In this document: in pieces, positions 14,417 to 20,367 of the stretch
Numbering within the stretch: the stretch's first letter is position 1
How the letters are laid out: the number at the start of each line of letters is the position of its first letter
Notes under the pieces: model-generated
What the model saw: the letters and a program-made list of their open reading frames with translations, nothing else
The model's database searches: none
What the model was told of the DNA's origin: nothing
Program-made: the position numbers and the translations under genes
Source: a virus
Strand: one strand, 5' to 3'
Virus record (IMG/VR): IMGVR_UViG_3300013101_000095
Coordinates: 1 to 24,021 of that record
Length of the DNA stretch: 24,021 bases

Positions 14417-14695
14417 ATGCATCTAATTAATACAATTATACCTTCAAATAATCCTTTTAATGAAGATACTATAATAGAAATTGAATTAACAGATATTCAA
14501 TTTATCATATTTGAAAAATTTCAAAATTATAAAAATGTATTGGCTAAATTACATACGTTAAATATTTGTCAAGATTTACCTAAAGAAATTGTTCAATCAT
14601 ACATTCATACAGTAGGTAAAAAAATTGAAGAAGAAATGATGGAAAAAGTATTTACTGAAATTTCATACTTAACTGATATGTGGTTTACAGATTAA
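14417..14695 (+). CDS. Hypothetical 92-residue protein, first gene of small-gene block
   Basis: The ATG at 14417 is preferred: CAGAGAAATAAA precedes it and the alternative in-frame ATG at 14375 lies within the TGGTATACA promoter element. The product is hydrophilic and probably helical (FEKFQNYKNVLAKLHTL, KKIEEEMMEKVFTEI), without membrane segments. It is the only gene between the tandem TGGTATACA element and the 58-bp leader, which are directly joined at the second locus. No family recognised. Confidence 0.7.
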   Translation: MHLINTIIPSNNPFNEDTIIEIELTDIQFIIFEKFQNYKNVLAKLHTLNICQDLPKEIVQSYIHTVGKKIEEEMMEKVFTEISYLTDMWFTD

Positions 14696-14700
14696 TCTAT

Positions 14701-14758
14701 ACTGGTTAAAGATGGTCCAGTTTAAAACCATCTAATATTAATGAGAATATTCAAATGA
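14701..14758 (+). repeat. 58-bp duplicated mRNA leader with pseudoknot potential, copy 1
   Basis: Identical to 18789-18846. As RNA: stem 1 pairs ACTGG (14701-14705) with CCAGT (14717-14721), stem 2 pairs AGATGGT (14710-14716) with ACCATCT (14727-14733); the order a-b-a'-b' with no base between b and a' is a compact H-type pseudoknot. Then AATATT (14734-14739) and AATATT (14746-14751) can close a 6-base loop containing the GAG that serves as Shine-Dalgarno. The repeat ends 1 base inside the second codon of the gene at 14755. The pairing is read from sequence; function is inferred. Confidence 0.85.
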
Positions 14759-15225
14759 AAAAATTACAAAATAGCAATACACTATCTGAAAATATTGAAA
14801 TTGTTGCAAGAGAAGCATATGATTCAGGTATTCCAGAATTTAATTATTTAGCATTTATTGAAGGCGCTGAATTTAATTTTGATTGTTCACGTGTAAAAAC
14901 TCCAACAGTTTTAGTGGATGGGTATCGTGATACATATGTACAAGTAATATCAATAAATGGCTGTAATACCATATTTCCAGAAGGTAAACATTTGGACATG
15001 ATTGTGTTCCTAATTGAATTAGATAAACTACAATGTCAAATTCCACTTGAAGATCGAATTGAAAGTATTGCATTGTACCAAGAATCTGATGATGAAGTTA
15101 TAGAAGATTATGATGATGAAATCAATACACTTAATGATACCTTTGTAGATTTAGTTCAACGACAATGGACAACATTAGAAGAACTTTTTAACGTGACAGT
15201 TGATAGATTCAATAACTCAATTTAA
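14755..15225 (+). CDS. Hypothetical acidic protein behind duplicated leader (copy 1)
   Basis: 156 residues, acidic, with an especially acidic stretch near residues 111-124 (ESDDEVIEDYDDE). No signal peptide or membrane segment; the middle part (VLVDGYRDTYVQVISING) looks beta-stranded and the ends helical. The start codon directly follows the 58-bp leader that also precedes the gene at 18843, yet the two proteins share no evident similarity. The strong, dedicated leader suggests high or specially controlled expression. Acidic host-takeover proteins are common in phage early regions, but no family is recognised. Confidence 0.75.
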   Translation: MKKLQNSNTLSENIEIVAREAYDSGIPEFNYLAFIEGAEFNFDCSRVKTPTVLVDGYRDTYVQVISINGCNTIFPEGKHLDMIVFLIELDKLQCQIPLEDRIESIALYQESDDEVIEDYDDEINTLNDTFVDLVQRQWTTLEELFNVTVDRFNNSI

Positions 15226-15232
15226 CACTACA

Positions 15233-15275
15233 TCAGGTATCTGGTTAACACTGGGTACCTGAAACCTTTTAACTA
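15233..15275 (+). promoter_or_regulatory. Structured leader before 15290, pseudoknot-like
   Basis: TCAGGTA (15233-15239) pairs with TACCTGA (15256-15262), and TGGTTAA (15242-15248) can pair with TTAACTA (15269-15275, one G-U), again the a-b-a'-b' order of an H-type pseudoknot. It ends just before the GGGA Shine-Dalgarno (15278-15281) of the gene at 15290. Primary sequence differs from the 58-bp leader apart from CTGGTTAA. Confidence 0.55.
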
Positions 15276-15289
15276 ATGGGATATCACAA

Positions 15290-15481
15290 ATGACTAGAAG
15301 CGAAGAATTAGATTTAATGATTAGAGACCTTCAGAAACAGGCTACTGAAGCATCTAGAAAAGCTAAATTACCATTTCAACGTGATTTAAGATCACTTAGA
15401 AAACAATTACTAAAATTAAGGAAAAACAAAAATGGCAAGATTAACAAAAACACAAGTCATAACAGTACGAGTAACAACTGA
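15290..15481 (+). CDS. Hypothetical basic coiled-coil protein
   Basis: 63 residues, strongly basic, with a likely helix or coiled coil over most of its length (RSEELDLMIRDLQKQATEA, then RDLRSLRKQLLKLRKNK) and a disordered Asn/Ser/Lys tail. GGGA 8 bases before the ATG. The 3' end overlaps the ribbon-helix-helix gene by 50 bases in another frame. It could bind nucleic acid or a partner through the coiled coil. No family recognised. Confidence 0.65.
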   Translation: MTRSEELDLMIRDLQKQATEASRKAKLPFQRDLRSLRKQLLKLRKNKNGKINKNTSHNSTSNN

Positions 15482-15581
15482 ATTAGAAAATAAGTTTCTA
15501 AAATTACGAAAGAAATACAAATTATCTGCTACAGACCTTTTAATTAAATTGATGAAAGATTATGACAAATCCACTGTATGA
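15432..15581 (+). CDS. Ribbon-helix-helix (Arc/MetJ-type) DNA-binding protein
   Basis: 49 residues in a frame overlapping both neighbours (50 bases with the previous gene, 20 with the next), with a clear AAGGA 9 bases before the ATG. The text TQVITVRVTTELENKFLKLR has the alternating strand residues (V-T-V-R-V) that insert into the major groove, followed by helix A, a turn with YKLSATDLL and helix B (LLIKLMKDYDKS), which is the complete RHH fold of about 45 residues. RHH proteins act as dimers on short palindromic or tandem operators. The tandem GGTATAC elements in this window are candidate sites (inference). Confidence 0.8.
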   Translation: MARLTKTQVITVRVTTELENKFLKLRKKYKLSATDLLIKLMKDYDKSTV

Positions 15582-15975
15582 ATTAACTGACATGGTAGAG
15601 CCTAAAGATGGTAATACTAATAATGTCAGAGATCCTCACGTTACACCTGGTAGAAAATTATTCAATGCATGTTTAGAACTATTAGAAAAAGATAATAAGT
15701 ACATCAAGTGTATTGAGTATACCATATGTCCAATAGATACATATGTATTTGGCATGGCTAAATTTGATTATTTTGATGTCAATGCTAAAACTGGTAAAAC
15801 AGATCCAACACCCCGTGATTTTGAATTAAGAGGTGATGTTGATGATATAACAATAGATGTAATTTCAAATCTTAGACCTGGTTTAAATTATAATGTGTTA
15901 TCATATTATGAACATGGTTCCTATCATTGGGTAACCGCAGTTGAAATTAACAAAAGAAGACAGGATCTAACATGA
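15562..15975 (+). CDS. Hypothetical 137-residue protein
   Basis: Starts within the last codons of the ribbon-helix-helix gene and ends with ATGA overlapping the following membrane protein gene. No membrane segment. Mixed helix/strand text: VTPGRKLFNACLELLEKD, then IEYTICPIDTYVFGMAKFDY, and near the end YYEHGSYHWVTAVEI. No catalytic motif that I recognise. As the operon neighbours are a regulator and two membrane proteins, a host-directed function is possible. Confidence 0.7.
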   Translation: MTNPLYELTDMVEPKDGNTNNVRDPHVTPGRKLFNACLELLEKDNKYIKCIEYTICPIDTYVFGMAKFDYFDVNAKTGKTDPTPRDFELRGDVDDITIDVISNLRPGLNYNVLSYYEHGSYHWVTAVEINKRRQDLT

Positions 15976-16430
15976 ATAAAACAAGACAAGAAAAATTAAT
16001 ATTAATTGTTTGCAGTTTAATATTATTAATTACAATATTTGAAATACCAACTTATCATCATATTGATATCATTTTTATTATAATATTTTGTGTTGCATTA
16101 ATGGTAGAAATTTTTAAATCTATTGTAAGTATTAAAAAATCAAAAGCTTCAATTGATAGTTCTTTAAAAGCTGGACTAGAAACGTTTGAAAAAACATTGT
16201 ATGGTACATATGATGACTTAGATAAAAGAGATATTTCCGATATTACATATTTTAAAAAATTGGATAATGAAGATGATCCATTTTATGTTGGAAACGAACC
16301 TAATGATATTGTTAAATCATTACAATGTGTTAAATGTAATGGATTAGAATTCAACGTTGCTACAGCTGATTTTATCACTGTGATCAGATGTATCAAATGT
16401 AGATATGAAGTTGGGATACATGAAGGTTAA
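15972..16430 (+). CDS. Membrane protein with C-terminal zinc ribbon
   Basis: 152 residues. Two hydrophobic segments near residues 9-26 (LILIVCSLILLITIF) and 33-52 (IDIIFIIIFCVALMVEIF) form a hairpin anchor. A soluble charged linker follows, then a C-terminal CxxC...CxxC pair: CVKC at about 117-120 and CIKC at about 140-143, with an intervening beta hairpin, the pattern of a small zinc ribbon. With short N-terminus and loop, the ribbon would face the cytoplasm. Such domains usually bind protein or nucleic acid. Coupled by ATGA to the gene before. Unusual pairing of parts; no known family recognised. Confidence 0.72.
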   Translation: MNKTRQEKLILIVCSLILLITIFEIPTYHHIDIIFIIIFCVALMVEIFKSIVSIKKSKASIDSSLKAGLETFEKTLYGTYDDLDKRDISDITYFKKLDNEDDPFYVGNEPNDIVKSLQCVKCNGLEFNVATADFITVIRCIKCRYEVGIHEG

Positions 16431-16465
16431 AATCAAAAATTTCAAAAACAAATAGGATAAAACAT

Positions 16466-16939
16466 ATGATGACCGAAGAAGAAAAAATAATAATGTTATT
16501 AACATCAAAACTCAAAATTTGGATGTTGAACATTAAATTTATAATAGCCTTTATAATGGTAATATTGACAATATTATTCTACACTGATGTATTAACATTG
16601 GCAATATCATTAATATTATTTGGCTGTTCAGTATTATTTTTAATAATTTTATCAATATTTAAATCAGTTGCAATTACACAATTTGCTGATAATATTGGAG
16701 TAGATCTATCAAATGATGAATATGTTGAAGATTTATTTAAACGTACTAAAGAATATGTTGAAGTTAACCCAGTCCAAATAAGAACCGGTAAACTTGAAAC
16801 TAAAACATTTTATAATGAAAATAAAATGTTAAAATTTGTTGATGGTTTACCTAAAACTCCTAGAGAAGACGGTGTCATTTGTAATGTTGAAACAAATAAT
16901 GATTCATTATTTAGAACAAAATATGTGGTTACATGGTAA
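16466..16939 (+). CDS. Two-helix membrane protein with cytoplasmic tail
   Basis: 157 residues (start at the first of two consecutive ATG codons; AGGA lies 8 bases upstream). Two hydrophobic segments at about 23-40 (FIIAFIMVILTILFY) and 44-68 (LAISLILFGCSVLFLIILSIF), then a soluble domain of about 90 residues (FADNIGVDLSNDEYVEDLF, later KTFYNENKMLKFVDGLPK). Same topology and size as the preceding protein but without zinc cysteines; sequence similarity is not evident. Could be an inner-membrane exclusion or host-modulating protein. No family recognised. Confidence 0.7.
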   Translation: MMTEEEKIIMLLTSKLKIWMLNIKFIIAFIMVILTILFYTDVLTLAISLILFGCSVLFLIILSIFKSVAITQFADNIGVDLSNDEYVEDLFKRTKEYVEVNPVQIRTGKLETKTFYNENKMLKFVDGLPKTPREDGVICNVETNNDSLFRTKYVVTW

Positions 16940-16954
16940 TGAATAAATATTCCT

Positions 16955-17368
16955 ATGAAGACATCACATTGGAAAGGTGCCGAAAACTCGGCCCACATCG
17001 AAGAAGTCCCAGAGGGCATGGTAGGTTTCGTTTACTTAATAACTAATAATGTTAATGGAATGCAATACATTGGTAAGAAATTCTATTATAAGAAAGTAAC
17101 TAAAGGACCTTTGAAAGGTCGCAAACGAAAGAGGATTTCATATCCAGAATCTGATTGGAAAATCTATGAATCCTCTTCTGATTATGTAAAAGCAGCTATT
17201 GTGGAATTTGGTAAAGAGAATTTCTCGTTTGAGATTTTGAAATCATATCCAAATAAAACAATGACCAATTATGGTGAACTTGAAAGTCTCGTCAAACTGG
17301 ATGTTTTAAGATCTAATGATTGGTATAATGGTAGTATTTTAGGAAGATATTTTAATGGAAAAGTTTGA
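16955..17368 (+). CDS. GIY-YIG-like endonuclease
   Basis: 137 residues. GFVYLITNNVNGMQYIGKK (about 24-42) is the GIY-YIG core, with VYL for GIY and YIG intact. Then a basic loop (KGRKRKR), SDWKIYESSSDYVKAAI with the helix in which the family has its catalytic Arg/Lys region, and GELESLVKLDVL with the Glu expected as metal ligand (E107 or E109). A closing NDWYNGSILGRYFNG matches small phage homologues. Such genes act as freestanding homing nucleases or degrade host DNA. Its first 75 bases are clearly richer in G+C than the surroundings, a sign of transfer. Start context is weak. Confidence 0.8.
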   Translation: MKTSHWKGAENSAHIEEVPEGMVGFVYLITNNVNGMQYIGKKFYYKKVTKGPLKGRKRKRISYPESDWKIYESSSDYVKAAIVEFGKENFSFEILKSYPNKTMTNYGELESLVKLDVLRSNDWYNGSILGRYFNGKV

Positions 17369-17675
17369 AGTACAAATTACGAGATTAATTAAGACTCATA
17401 ATTTTAGAATCAGTGGAGCTACTGATCAATATGGTAATATTATAACTTTAAGATGGGATGATCAGTCATTTAGTACTACATTTACATATGCGGAATGTAA
17501 TCAGTTCTCACCTGACTTTATCCATGACATATTCGTACAACGATTGTATGATCATATGGTACCACCTCATTTAGTTCCTAAAAGTGATAAGGAGTTAACA
17601 AACATAGAGACCATAATAGATTATAATAAAGATATTGATAAACAAATTAAGCAATTAATAGAGAGTAAAATATGA
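17355..17675 (+). CDS. Hypothetical 106-residue protein
   Basis: Overlaps the nuclease gene by 14 bases and the following 23-codon gene by 4 bases (ATGA). The start is beta-rich (VQITRLIKTHNFRISG, NIITLRWDDQSFSTTFTYAE) and the end is helical and charged (IIDYNKDIDKQIKQLIESK). No membrane segment or motif recognised. An RBS is present in the nuclease coding end (GGAAGATATTTTAATGG context). Function unknown. Confidence 0.68.
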   Translation: MEKFEVQITRLIKTHNFRISGATDQYGNIITLRWDDQSFSTTFTYAECNQFSPDFIHDIFVQRLYDHMVPPHLVPKSDKELTNIETIIDYNKDIDKQIKQLIESKI

Positions 17676-17743
17676 AAACAACAGAAGAATTAATCATCGC
17701 TATTGAGAAATGGTTAAAAGAAAATCCGGTACAAGCAATATGA
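17672..17743 (+). CDS. Micro-ORF, 23-residue amphipathic peptide
   Basis: ATG at 17672 with a good GAGAG Shine-Dalgarno 7 bases upstream, and ATGA overlaps at both ends. The peptide (MKTTEELIIAIEKWLKENPV plus three) is an amphipathic helix. The following gene has no Shine-Dalgarno of its own, so this frame may serve to couple its translation. Short length limits confidence. Confidence 0.5.
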   Translation: MKTTEELIIAIEKWLKENPVQAI

Positions 17744-17904
17744 AATTAATTAAACTATTAACCCAAGTGGTGATTGAGGCCAGAATTGAAAAAAATGTGG
17801 AGGTAGAAATACTCGCATACAGAATACTGTATAAACTTAGTGGCGGTCAAGCTGATAAATTGCTCGCTGATTGTAAACCCAGAAGAAACAATAAAATAAA
17901 ATGA
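17740..17904 (+). CDS. Hypothetical basic 54-residue protein
   Basis: ATG at 17740 overlaps the stop of the 23-codon frame (ATGA); a further in-frame ATG at 17710 is less likely because it lacks such coupling. The product has a helix with alternating hydrophobic positions (IKLLTQVVIEARIEKNVEV, EILAYRILYKLSGG) and a basic end (CKPRRNNKIK). Its stop overlaps the next gene as ATGA. No family recognised. Confidence 0.6.
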   Translation: MKLIKLLTQVVIEARIEKNVEVEILAYRILYKLSGGQADKLLADCKPRRNNKIK

Positions 17905-18185
17905 AAATATTACAAACAACATTTAGTTACATAATGATGATAATTTTTGCAATAATAACGTATGCACCAACAATATGCATATTATTAATCACATATGTCC
18001 AAATTACAAATTTCATAATATCTGAAAATAAAAGATTTAATGACTGTAGACATGAACAAATTAGTATGATGATACCATTAAAAAGTATTGATATTTATAA
18101 CACAACTAAAATTGAAAGACAAAAATTAGTTGAAGAAATAAATTTAACATGTGAAAGTAAATTAGAAGTTAAATATTTCAAATAA
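17901..18185 (+). CDS. Small membrane-anchored protein
   Basis: 94 residues. A hydrophobic N-terminal region (about 8-40: YIMMIIFAIITYAPT, ICILLITYVQITNFI) makes one long or two short membrane helices. The C-terminal half is charged and helical with two cysteines (FNDCRHEQ, NLTCESK), which might form a disulfide if it faces the periplasm. Starts with ATGA overlap; ends 12 bases before the lipoprotein gene, so both may act together at the envelope. No family recognised. Confidence 0.65.
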   Translation: MKILQTTFSYIMMIIFAIITYAPTICILLITYVQITNFIISENKRFNDCRHEQISMMIPLKSIDIYNTTKIERQKLVEEINLTCESKLEVKYFK

Positions 18186-18197
18186 TCTGGAAATAAA

Positions 18198-18728
18198 ATG
18201 AAAACTTTAATAATAGCAAGTATAATATTAACATTAGTTGGATGTGCAGGTGGTCCAGCTAGAATGGCAATGCTGAGTGATACAGAGTTGCAATCAGCAG
18301 GTTTTGAACAATTATGCCATTCATATCGATATTGGGGATCTGAAAAATATTTAGAACCACTTAAAATTAGAACTAAAGTAGTTAAAAGATATGTGTCAGA
18401 TTTTAAACCATATGAAGCTCCTAAAGGTTTAACCGTTGTTGAACGAAGAAGAGCATTTTCTCACCATATGAGAACAAGTAAAACATATGGTGCCCATCAC
18501 TATGAATATGATACCGTTCCATTATTTACTGATGATGAAATTTACCTTATTAGAAAAGGTTCAATTAGAGTTGGTATGTCTTTAGGCGCTTTAAAATGTT
18601 CTAAAGGTCCACATACTGATGTTAGTTTTTCATCTTATGGTCCTACACAGTATGTTTATAGACCTAATAGATATTCAACAACTTATGTTTATGTTAAAGG
18701 TGATAAAGTAGTTGATTGGTCAAATTAA
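18198..18728 (+). CDS. Lipoprotein with BamE/SmpA-like C-terminus
   Basis: 176 residues. The N-terminus is a type II signal peptide: MK, hydrophobic LIIASIILTLVG, and Cys16 in the lipobox LVGC, followed by AGG. The C-terminal 55 residues (IRKGSIRVGMSLGALKCSKG and, after a gap, YVYVKGDKVVDW) follow the order of BamE/SmpA-like domains, in which a G-M-S-x-x-x start helix is followed by strands ending in a Y-V-Y-x-x-x-x-V turn. It should be sorted to the outer or inner membrane of a Gram-negative host. Phage lipoproteins such as T5 Llp block receptors and exclude superinfecting phages, so a similar role is plausible. GGA 9 bases before the ATG. Confidence 0.78.
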   Translation: MKTLIIASIILTLVGCAGGPARMAMLSDTELQSAGFEQLCHSYRYWGSEKYLEPLKIRTKVVKRYVSDFKPYEAPKGLTVVERRRAFSHHMRTSKTYGAHHYEYDTVPLFTDDEIYLIRKGSIRVGMSLGALKCSKGPHTDVSFSSYGPTQYVYRPNRYSTTYVYVKGDKVVDWSN

Positions 18729-18749
18729 AACATGTACATTTAATAAATA

Positions 18750-18785
18750 GTGGTATACATTTCCAAGAGAGTGGTATACAATAGT
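18750..18785 (+). promoter_or_regulatory. Tandem TGGTATACA element, copy 2
   Basis: Two TGGTATACA boxes (18751-18759 and 18772-18780), 21 bases apart, the second again continuing as ATAG. The flanks match the copy at 14355 closely. If the second box is an extended -10, transcription would start about 7 bases on, at or next to 18789, where the 58-bp leader begins, so the RNA would open with the pseudoknot. Confidence 0.6.
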
Positions 18786-18788
18786 CTC

Positions 18789-18846
18789 ACTGGTTAAAGA
18801 TGGTCCAGTTTAAAACCATCTAATATTAATGAGAATATTCAAATGA
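18789..18846 (+). repeat. 58-bp duplicated mRNA leader with pseudoknot potential, copy 2
   Basis: Second copy of 14701-14758 without a mismatch. All pairings given for copy 1 are present. Here the leader lies 3 bases after the tandem TGGTATACA element and ends within the second codon of the gene at 18843. Confidence 0.85.
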
Positions 18847-19265
18847 GAACTATTAAAATAGATGGTAACTATTACACTAAAAAAACAAGTAAAACACCAC
18901 AAGAACTATTTACTGAATTTCTGATGGAAATATCAGAAAATGGAGATCATGATTATACTAAAGAAATACATCCTGAAATATTTGAAACAGTTGAACCTGA
19001 ACTTACACTTAGGTTGAGTATGATGTTTCAATTTTATTCGAATGAATATGATCTATTACGTGATTCATATTTTAATAAAGATAAAGATTTATTTGATGTG
19101 TTGGATACATTACATGATGATATGAAATCAGGTAAATTTATCTTTTCAAACAAACATGAATATCCGCCACGTGTTGAAGATTTTTCAAATAAAGGTGATA
19201 TTAAACTGATTAATCAAGGTTTTCTAAAAGAAATGAAATTAAAAGGTTTTAAATTGGTTAAATAA
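18843..19265 (+). CDS. Hypothetical protein behind duplicated leader (copy 2)
   Basis: 140 residues, mixed charge, hydrophilic, probably helical (PQELFTEFLMEISENG, LFDVLDTLHDDMKSG) with a basic end (GFLKEMKLKGFKLVK). No membrane segment. Start codon directly follows the 58-bp leader, and an intrinsic terminator lies 10 bases after its stop, so it is probably expressed as a short monocistronic RNA from the element at 18750. No family recognised and no evident similarity to the protein at 14755, which has the same leader. Confidence 0.75.
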   Translation: MRTIKIDGNYYTKKTSKTPQELFTEFLMEISENGDHDYTKEIHPEIFETVEPELTLRLSMMFQFYSNEYDLLRDSYFNKDKDLFDVLDTLHDDMKSGKFIFSNKHEYPPRVEDFSNKGDIKLINQGFLKEMKLKGFKLVK

Positions 19266-19274
19266 GTATACAAT

Positions 19275-19305
19275 AAAGGACGAGACTGAGAACCTCGTCC
19301 TTTTT
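19275..19305 (+). terminator. Rho-independent terminator
   Basis: AAAGGACGAG (19275-19284) pairs perfectly with CTCGTCCTTT (19294-19303) over a 9-base loop, and the 3' arm runs into TTTTT (19301-19305). It ends the unit of the gene at 18843. A single GTATACAATA box, like the end of the promoter elements, sits directly upstream at 19266-19275. Confidence 0.93.
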
Positions 19306-19319
19306 ATGGAGAAATATTA

Positions 19320-20021: not shown

Positions 20022-20126
20022 GGATTTCTAGGAACACTAATATCAATAACTTAGAACACACATTGTCACCTAAGTTATTGATTGTCATGTTCCTAGAAAT
20101 CTAAAGAAATAATTAGAAATCCCTAG
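20018..20126. repeat. Nested inverted repeats with alternative pairing
   Basis: GATTTCTAGGAAC (20023-20035) is the reverse complement of 20089-20101, and ATCAATAACTTAG (20042-20054) of 20070-20082, together a 26-bp hairpin with a 6x6 internal loop and 15-base apical loop. In addition 20018-20030 (CTAGGGATTTCTA) is the exact reverse complement of 20114-20126, so the left arm has two competing partners, each 13 bp. No poly-T follows either arm, so it is not a standard terminator. Confidence 0.88.
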
Positions 20127-20140
20127 AAATACAAAGAAAT
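20095..20140 (+). repeat. Five AGAAAT hexamers at exact 10-bp spacing
   Basis: AGAAAT occurs at 20095, 20105, 20115, 20125 and 20135, with differing 4-base spacers. One helical turn of spacing puts all copies on one DNA face, as in protein-binding iterons or bent DNA. The first and fourth copies are also arms of the inverted repeats. Confidence 0.88.
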
Positions 20141-20154
20141 TTCCCCAGACTAAG

Positions 20155-20179
20155 TCTTGACGGCCTAATCTTGACGGCC
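20155..20179 (+). repeat. GC-rich 11-bp direct repeat, TCTTGACGGCC twice
   Basis: Copies at 20155-20165 and 20169-20179, 14 bases apart, each preceded by TAA. They include TTGACG boxes; a perfect TATAAT is at 20190-20195, but only 13 bases after the second TTGACG, too short for a standard promoter. The G+C content stands out from the AT-rich surroundings. Confidence 0.8.
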
Positions 20180-20284
20180 ATAGTGTTCCTATAATATCGT
20201 CTTACGACGGGAAAATCGAATTCGTAACCTCATTCAGATTTATCCTCCATCACATTACATGTTCAGGTAGAAATCAAAGGACAT

Positions 20285-20324
20285 CAGTGATCACTGGTTG
20301 ACTGATTATAAATAGAGGTATAAT
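20285..20324 (+). promoter_or_regulatory. Sigma-70-like promoter with palindromic operator
   Basis: CAGTGATCACTG (20285-20296) is a 12-base perfect palindrome. TTGACT (20298-20303) and TATAAT (20319-20324), 15 bases apart, form a near-consensus promoter (spacer slightly short of 16-18). The palindrome abuts the -35 box. It should drive the gene at 20368 and the terminase genes. Confidence 0.65.
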
Positions 20325-20367
20325 AACATATTAACAAGAACCAATTAATTAACCAGGTATAAGAATA

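Follow-up and report, generated by a model that had tools for sequence, protein, structure and literature searches.

Why are two unrelated phage genes preceded by the same 58 bases? The window analysed here is a whole 24,021-base stretch from a virus record, belonging to a phage known solely through environmental DNA. Within it, the leader of one orphan gene (gene B) recurs with 0 of 58 changes in front of another (gene C; Table 1). An earlier note on this DNA had reported the repeat, and its coordinates and the 58-base identity proved right when we extended the match (final length 58). Its statement that the two downstream genes are unrelated is borne out by BLASTP (E = 4). Comparison of either gene with PHROGs, Pfam and the phage collection yields no convincing match, and their predicted structure models (pLDDT 41-42) are too poor to judge the fold. 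The reading that we favour, at a probability of roughly 45%, is that of a phage-private, start-associated 5′ leader that was duplicated as a module and, in cis, gives the mRNA a structured 5′ end or an insulator that serves its stability and translation.

Table 1. Features at and between the two copies of the leader (S, stem; L, loop or junction of the knot)
Feature	Position	Strand	Details
Promoter-like box P1	14356-14386	+	Tandem TGGTATACA 20 bp apart (14356, 14376), 5′ of gene A
Gene A	14417-14695	+	Orphan, 92 aa; probable start ATG 14417; between P1 and leader copy 1
Leader copy 1	14701-14758	+	Knot, A/U-rich linker, GAG, ATGA (from sequence and repeat extension)
H-type knot, copy 1	14701-14733	+	S1 14701-14705/14717-14721; S2 14710-14716/14727-14733; L1 4, L2 0, L3 5
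A/U-rich linker	14734-14754	+	Weak Shine-Dalgarno GAG 14743-14745, 9 nt 5′ of ATG
Gene B	14755-15225	+	Orphan, 156 aa, pI 4.1; follows leader copy 1
13-bp hairpin	15233-15262	+	Loop UAAC; in leader of gene at 15290, which lacks the knot and may be a diverged third leader
SegE-type GIY-YIG homing endonuclease gene	16955-17368		Between the leader copies
Promoter-like box P2	18751-18782	+	Tandem TGGTATACA 21 bp apart (18751, 18772); TATACA-17-TACAAT
Leader copy 2	18789-18846	+	Same 58 bases; directly 3′ of P2
H-type knot, copy 2	18789-18821	+	Same geometry (knot scan)
Gene C	18843-19265	+	Orphan, 140 aa, pI 5.4; follows leader copy 2

Boundaries of the duplicated leader

The conserved block runs from the first base of the knot to the start codon, and its flanks differ. 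On the left the match stops one base before the knot (T vs C); on the right it continues through ATGA and is lost with the next base, the fifth in the frame (ATGAA/ATGAG), such that both copies terminate at a start codon. No other exact dispersed non-coding repeat of at least 30 nt occurs in 885 kb of related phage DNA. The nearest comparable case in that DNA is a duplication of a leader plus N-terminus in L021, a contig of an unrelated phage (L021:2268-2794): two neighbouring genes 3′ of the terminase gene share an exact 70-nt repeat that covers the leader and the initial codons (MAIKRDSKGRFS).

The strongest rival to our reading holds that a strong start region was recently duplicated or gene-converted, with at most the ribosome-binding segment under selection and the knot without a role; we consider this unlikely, if still a serious contender. 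The identity of the two leaders is perfect, with no independent divergence, as a recent duplication would produce just as well. This genome does show a sign of recent copying or gene conversion, an exact 52-nt repeat (10305-10356/11730-11781) in paralogous tail genes that are 86% identical. Against a roleless knot stands the coincidence of the block edges with the start of the knot and the start codon.

Knot geometry, chance expectation and competing folds

The stems (S1, ACTGG/CCAGT; S2, AGATGGT/ACCATCT), the loops (TTAA and TTAAA) and the zero-base junction are as the earlier note gave them, and together they make a geometrically sound H-type knot. We defined a strict knot as 5 + 7 Watson-Crick pairs with a junction of no more than one base and six or more G/C across the 5′ arms. 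Over the whole window, the + strand has such a knot at these two places and nowhere else, and the - strand lacks it; among shuffles that preserve the dinucleotides of the window, 0 of 60 yield one. A strict knot at the left end of a copied block is thus improbable by chance, which argues against the recent duplication of a start region whose knot has no role. In relatives that are more GC-rich, the same definition returns 22 sites in 1.69 Mb of strand (some of them mutually homologous). Since this amounts to ~0.3 per 24 kb strand, a single knot somewhere within a window is unremarkable. The unusual part is the fit: the knot takes up exactly the left end of a perfect repeat, and a start codon forms the other end.

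Folding energies make formation of the knot plausible rather than certain. Taken alone, the S2 and S1 hairpins have Vienna energies of -6.7 and -4.3 kcal/mol. A rough energy for the whole knot, combining Vienna stacks with published-type penalty terms, is -10.3 kcal/mol, or about -12.6 with coaxial stacking; the knot of phage T4 gene 32 comes to -6.8 kcal/mol on the same yardstick without coaxial stacking. Nested folds compete closely and leave the knot without clear energetic dominance: the leader 57-mer has a nested fold of -10.7 kcal/mol that pairs part of the Shine-Dalgarno, and in copy 2 the coding sequence carries UAGAUGGU, which is able to pair ACCAUCUA away from the knot. We considered a switch between knot and hairpin that masks the Shine-Dalgarno, and dropped it: the nested fold exists, but shuffled tails match it in 16% of trials.

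The AATATT/AATATT hairpin that the earlier note placed around the GAG does not hold up, being unstable at a folding energy of +0.1 kcal/mol. A five-codon mini-ORF (ATGAGAATATTCAAATGA; 14741-14758 and 18829-18846) has its stop overlapping the gene start in both copies; it is without a Shine-Dalgarno, and we set it aside as a candidate.

Promoter-like boxes

Perfect copies of TGGTATACA occur in the window only in P1 and P2, which are 87% identical over 47 columns; the leader, with its 0 of 58 differences, has been kept better than these boxes. Were P2 a promoter, its end at 18782 would put the predicted +1 near 18789, where the knot of copy 2 begins. This supports, as a prediction, the earlier proposal that transcription from the box starts right at the knot. 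Equally good matches to the promoter consensus abound in the region (61 found vs 54 expected), so the duplication of the box is a stronger argument than the consensus match itself.

Copy 1 has no promoter-like box of its own and begins 5 nt past the stop codon of gene A; judged from this arrangement it must be operon-internal, within a longer transcript. If box and leader were ancestrally one unit, gene A would now separate them at the first locus. Directly 3′ of gene C lies a terminator-like element (19266-19310; GGACGAG/CTCGTCC, then a T run); 5′ of this element, GTATACAATA partly matches the promoter-like box.

Distribution of the leader in other genomes

Exact and relaxed patterns run over IMG/VR place the leader outside the window in a single contig, L001, a record of the same virus (99.6% identity over 5.3 kb). 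The search of related genomes that the earlier note had proposed has thus been run, and what it yields is a near-identical sequence from one lineage. Patterns with freed stems or freed loops return nothing beyond this contig, the leader is in none of 80 terminase relatives (identity ≤47%), and BLAST of the leader against phages and plasmids gives chance-level matches only. In Rfam no family exceeds the gathering threshold, and a lax threshold brings up chance snoRNA matches, none of them on the leader. Further candidate sites were rejected on inspection. At a Pantoea site, the one match of a genome scan, the stems do not form; the 20-base ribosome-binding end of the leader alone has two further matches, both within coding sequence; and three TTAAAGATGGT words in contig L014 fit coding sequence.

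Position 1 of L001 corresponds to window position 18737, exactly where the similarity between P1 and P2 begins, which may reflect an assembly fork or strain variation 5′ of P2. The same coincidence would suit an explanation at the level of DNA, in which the repeat is an operator, or a direct repeat related to recombination or homing that flanks a 4-kb cassette with the GIY-YIG endonuclease gene. That gene does lie between the two leader copies, but the repeat halts exactly at the start codons of the coding strand, a coincidence that neither a DNA operator nor a recombination repeat requires, and we found no relative in which the cassette is missing. Of the explanations weighed here we regard this as the least probable.

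A possible third leader

The gene at 15290 (63 aa) has a leader, 15226-15289, that is co-linear with the 58-mer in CTGGTTAA, GAAACC/AAAACC, TAATGRG and CAAATG. Among 6,707 AT-rich stretches that precede an ATG, 11 reach its anchored score, and it ranks first of the 13 gene starts tested (corrected p about 0.02); homology to the 58-mer is suggestive on this evidence. The leader keeps neither S1 nor S2. Instead it has the 13-bp hairpin (z -4.4, with G-U pairs allowed), which ends 27 nt before the start.

The earlier note had named relatives with broken, uncompensated stems as evidence against its reading. This leader does break both stems, which counts against the knot; it also has a hairpin in the same place, and as a relative it is suggestive only. 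A weakly similar leader without the knot favours the recent-duplication explanation. If the two are homologous, structure at that place would matter more than the knot itself, and a strong structure about as far from the start is consistent with structure as such mattering. The loop UAAC is also that of the gene 43 operator of T4 and RB69 (PMC3014915), a likeness that is probably a coincidence.

Comparison with known phage leaders

The earlier note had pointed to the gene 32 leader, and the analogy is good in shape and poor in gene, linker and regulator. The leaders of T4, T2 and RB69 gene 32 (the gp32 operator) likewise have an H-type knot 5′ of an A/U-rich, weakly structured start region (PMC3014915, PMC535899), and the T2 counterpart of the T4 knot has been solved by NMR (PMC3014915). 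Our scan recovers the T4 knot with S1 4, L1 1, S2 7, L2 0 and L3 5, at -67; in the leader studied here, which has no sequence homology to it, the sequence could form a knot with the same S2, the same near-zero junction and the same L3 but with S1 5 and L1 4, at -54. The T4 linker of about 40 nt is unstructured and has repeated UUAAA/UAAA, whereas here it is 21 nt with a single UUAA. The T4 knot precedes one gene, for a single-stranded DNA-binding protein (SSB); here two unrelated orphan genes follow, with no known binding protein. RNase E cleavage a short way 5′ of the knot, together with gp32 binding, also belongs to the T4 type of operator.

These differences bear on the possibility that the leader is a translational operator of the gene 32 type, in which the knot is the nucleation site for a phage RNA-binding protein that spreads over the linker and represses the two genes in trans. 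The shape of the knot (S2 7, L2 0, L3 5) and the A/U-rich, weakly structured start region after it would fit. The T4 operator is autogenous for the SSB, however, and genes B and C match no known family, the SSB families of PHROGs and Pfam included; nor was an SSB recognised among the scanned proteins of the window. With the short linker added, we think such an operator improbable. More doubtful again is that one transferable knot leader subjects two unrelated late-region genes to a common trans-acting translational regulator; if true, this would be a multi-gene operator of the gene 32 type outside T4-like phages. A 2010 review considered the gene 32 knot perhaps the sole viral knot in translational autoregulation (PMC3014915). 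In T4 the gene for SegG, which is related to the SegE type, directly adjoins the knot of gene 32 (PMC535899).

Where the repetition at gene starts is concerned, the better analogy is with the start-associated sequences (SAS) and extended SAS (ESAS) of Cluster K mycobacteriophages, which are also phage-private repeats just 5′ of the start codons of unrelated genes (PMC3203893), as the present leader is. SAS are sometimes accompanied by an upstream inverted repeat, but the authors who described them doubt that the ESAS repeats pair in RNA (PMC3203893). They are, however, 13-bp repeats in 11-19 copies (PMC3203893), and here there are just two perfect 58-bp copies that are able to form a knot; the SAS 13-mer GGGATAGGAGCCC (PMC3203893) is absent from the leader. 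The wcaG, manA and PhotoRC-II motifs are candidate structured RNAs in the 5′ leaders of phage or environmental genes (PMC2864571). Those rest on covariation across many sequences (PMC2864571), whereas this leader is confined to a single lineage and has no Rfam match.

Proposed role of the leader

Our preferred reading, a structured leader acting in cis, starts from the identity of the two copies, their boundaries, the geometry of the knot and the position of the promoter-like box. The earlier note's modular leader controlling translation or stability is upheld in its placement, since the copied block spans the knot through the start codon. Formation of the knot in the cell, and with it stabilisation of the mRNA or insulation of the start site, is what we infer. 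Knot, A/U-rich linker, weak Shine-Dalgarno and ATG would have been copied as one unit and retained before two late-region accessory genes. Acting in cis on the mRNA, the knot could close the 5′ end or boundary by base pairing and make it resistant to 5′-end-dependent decay, and it could prevent RNA further 5′ from pairing with the A/U-rich ribosome-binding site. At the second copy the knot would constitute the primary 5′ end, and at the first an operon-internal, possibly processed, boundary. If this is correct, the locus offers a small, portable test case for the reuse of structured 5′ leaders by phages.

Elsewhere in the window, a 346-bp intergenic stretch (20022-20367) lies 5′ of a 97-aa ORF and a likely terminase small subunit gene. 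It holds a 32-nt inverted repeat (20023-20054/20070-20101, 88%), repeated CCTAGAAAT units and CTGGTT...AACCAG, and may be a packaging site or an origin.
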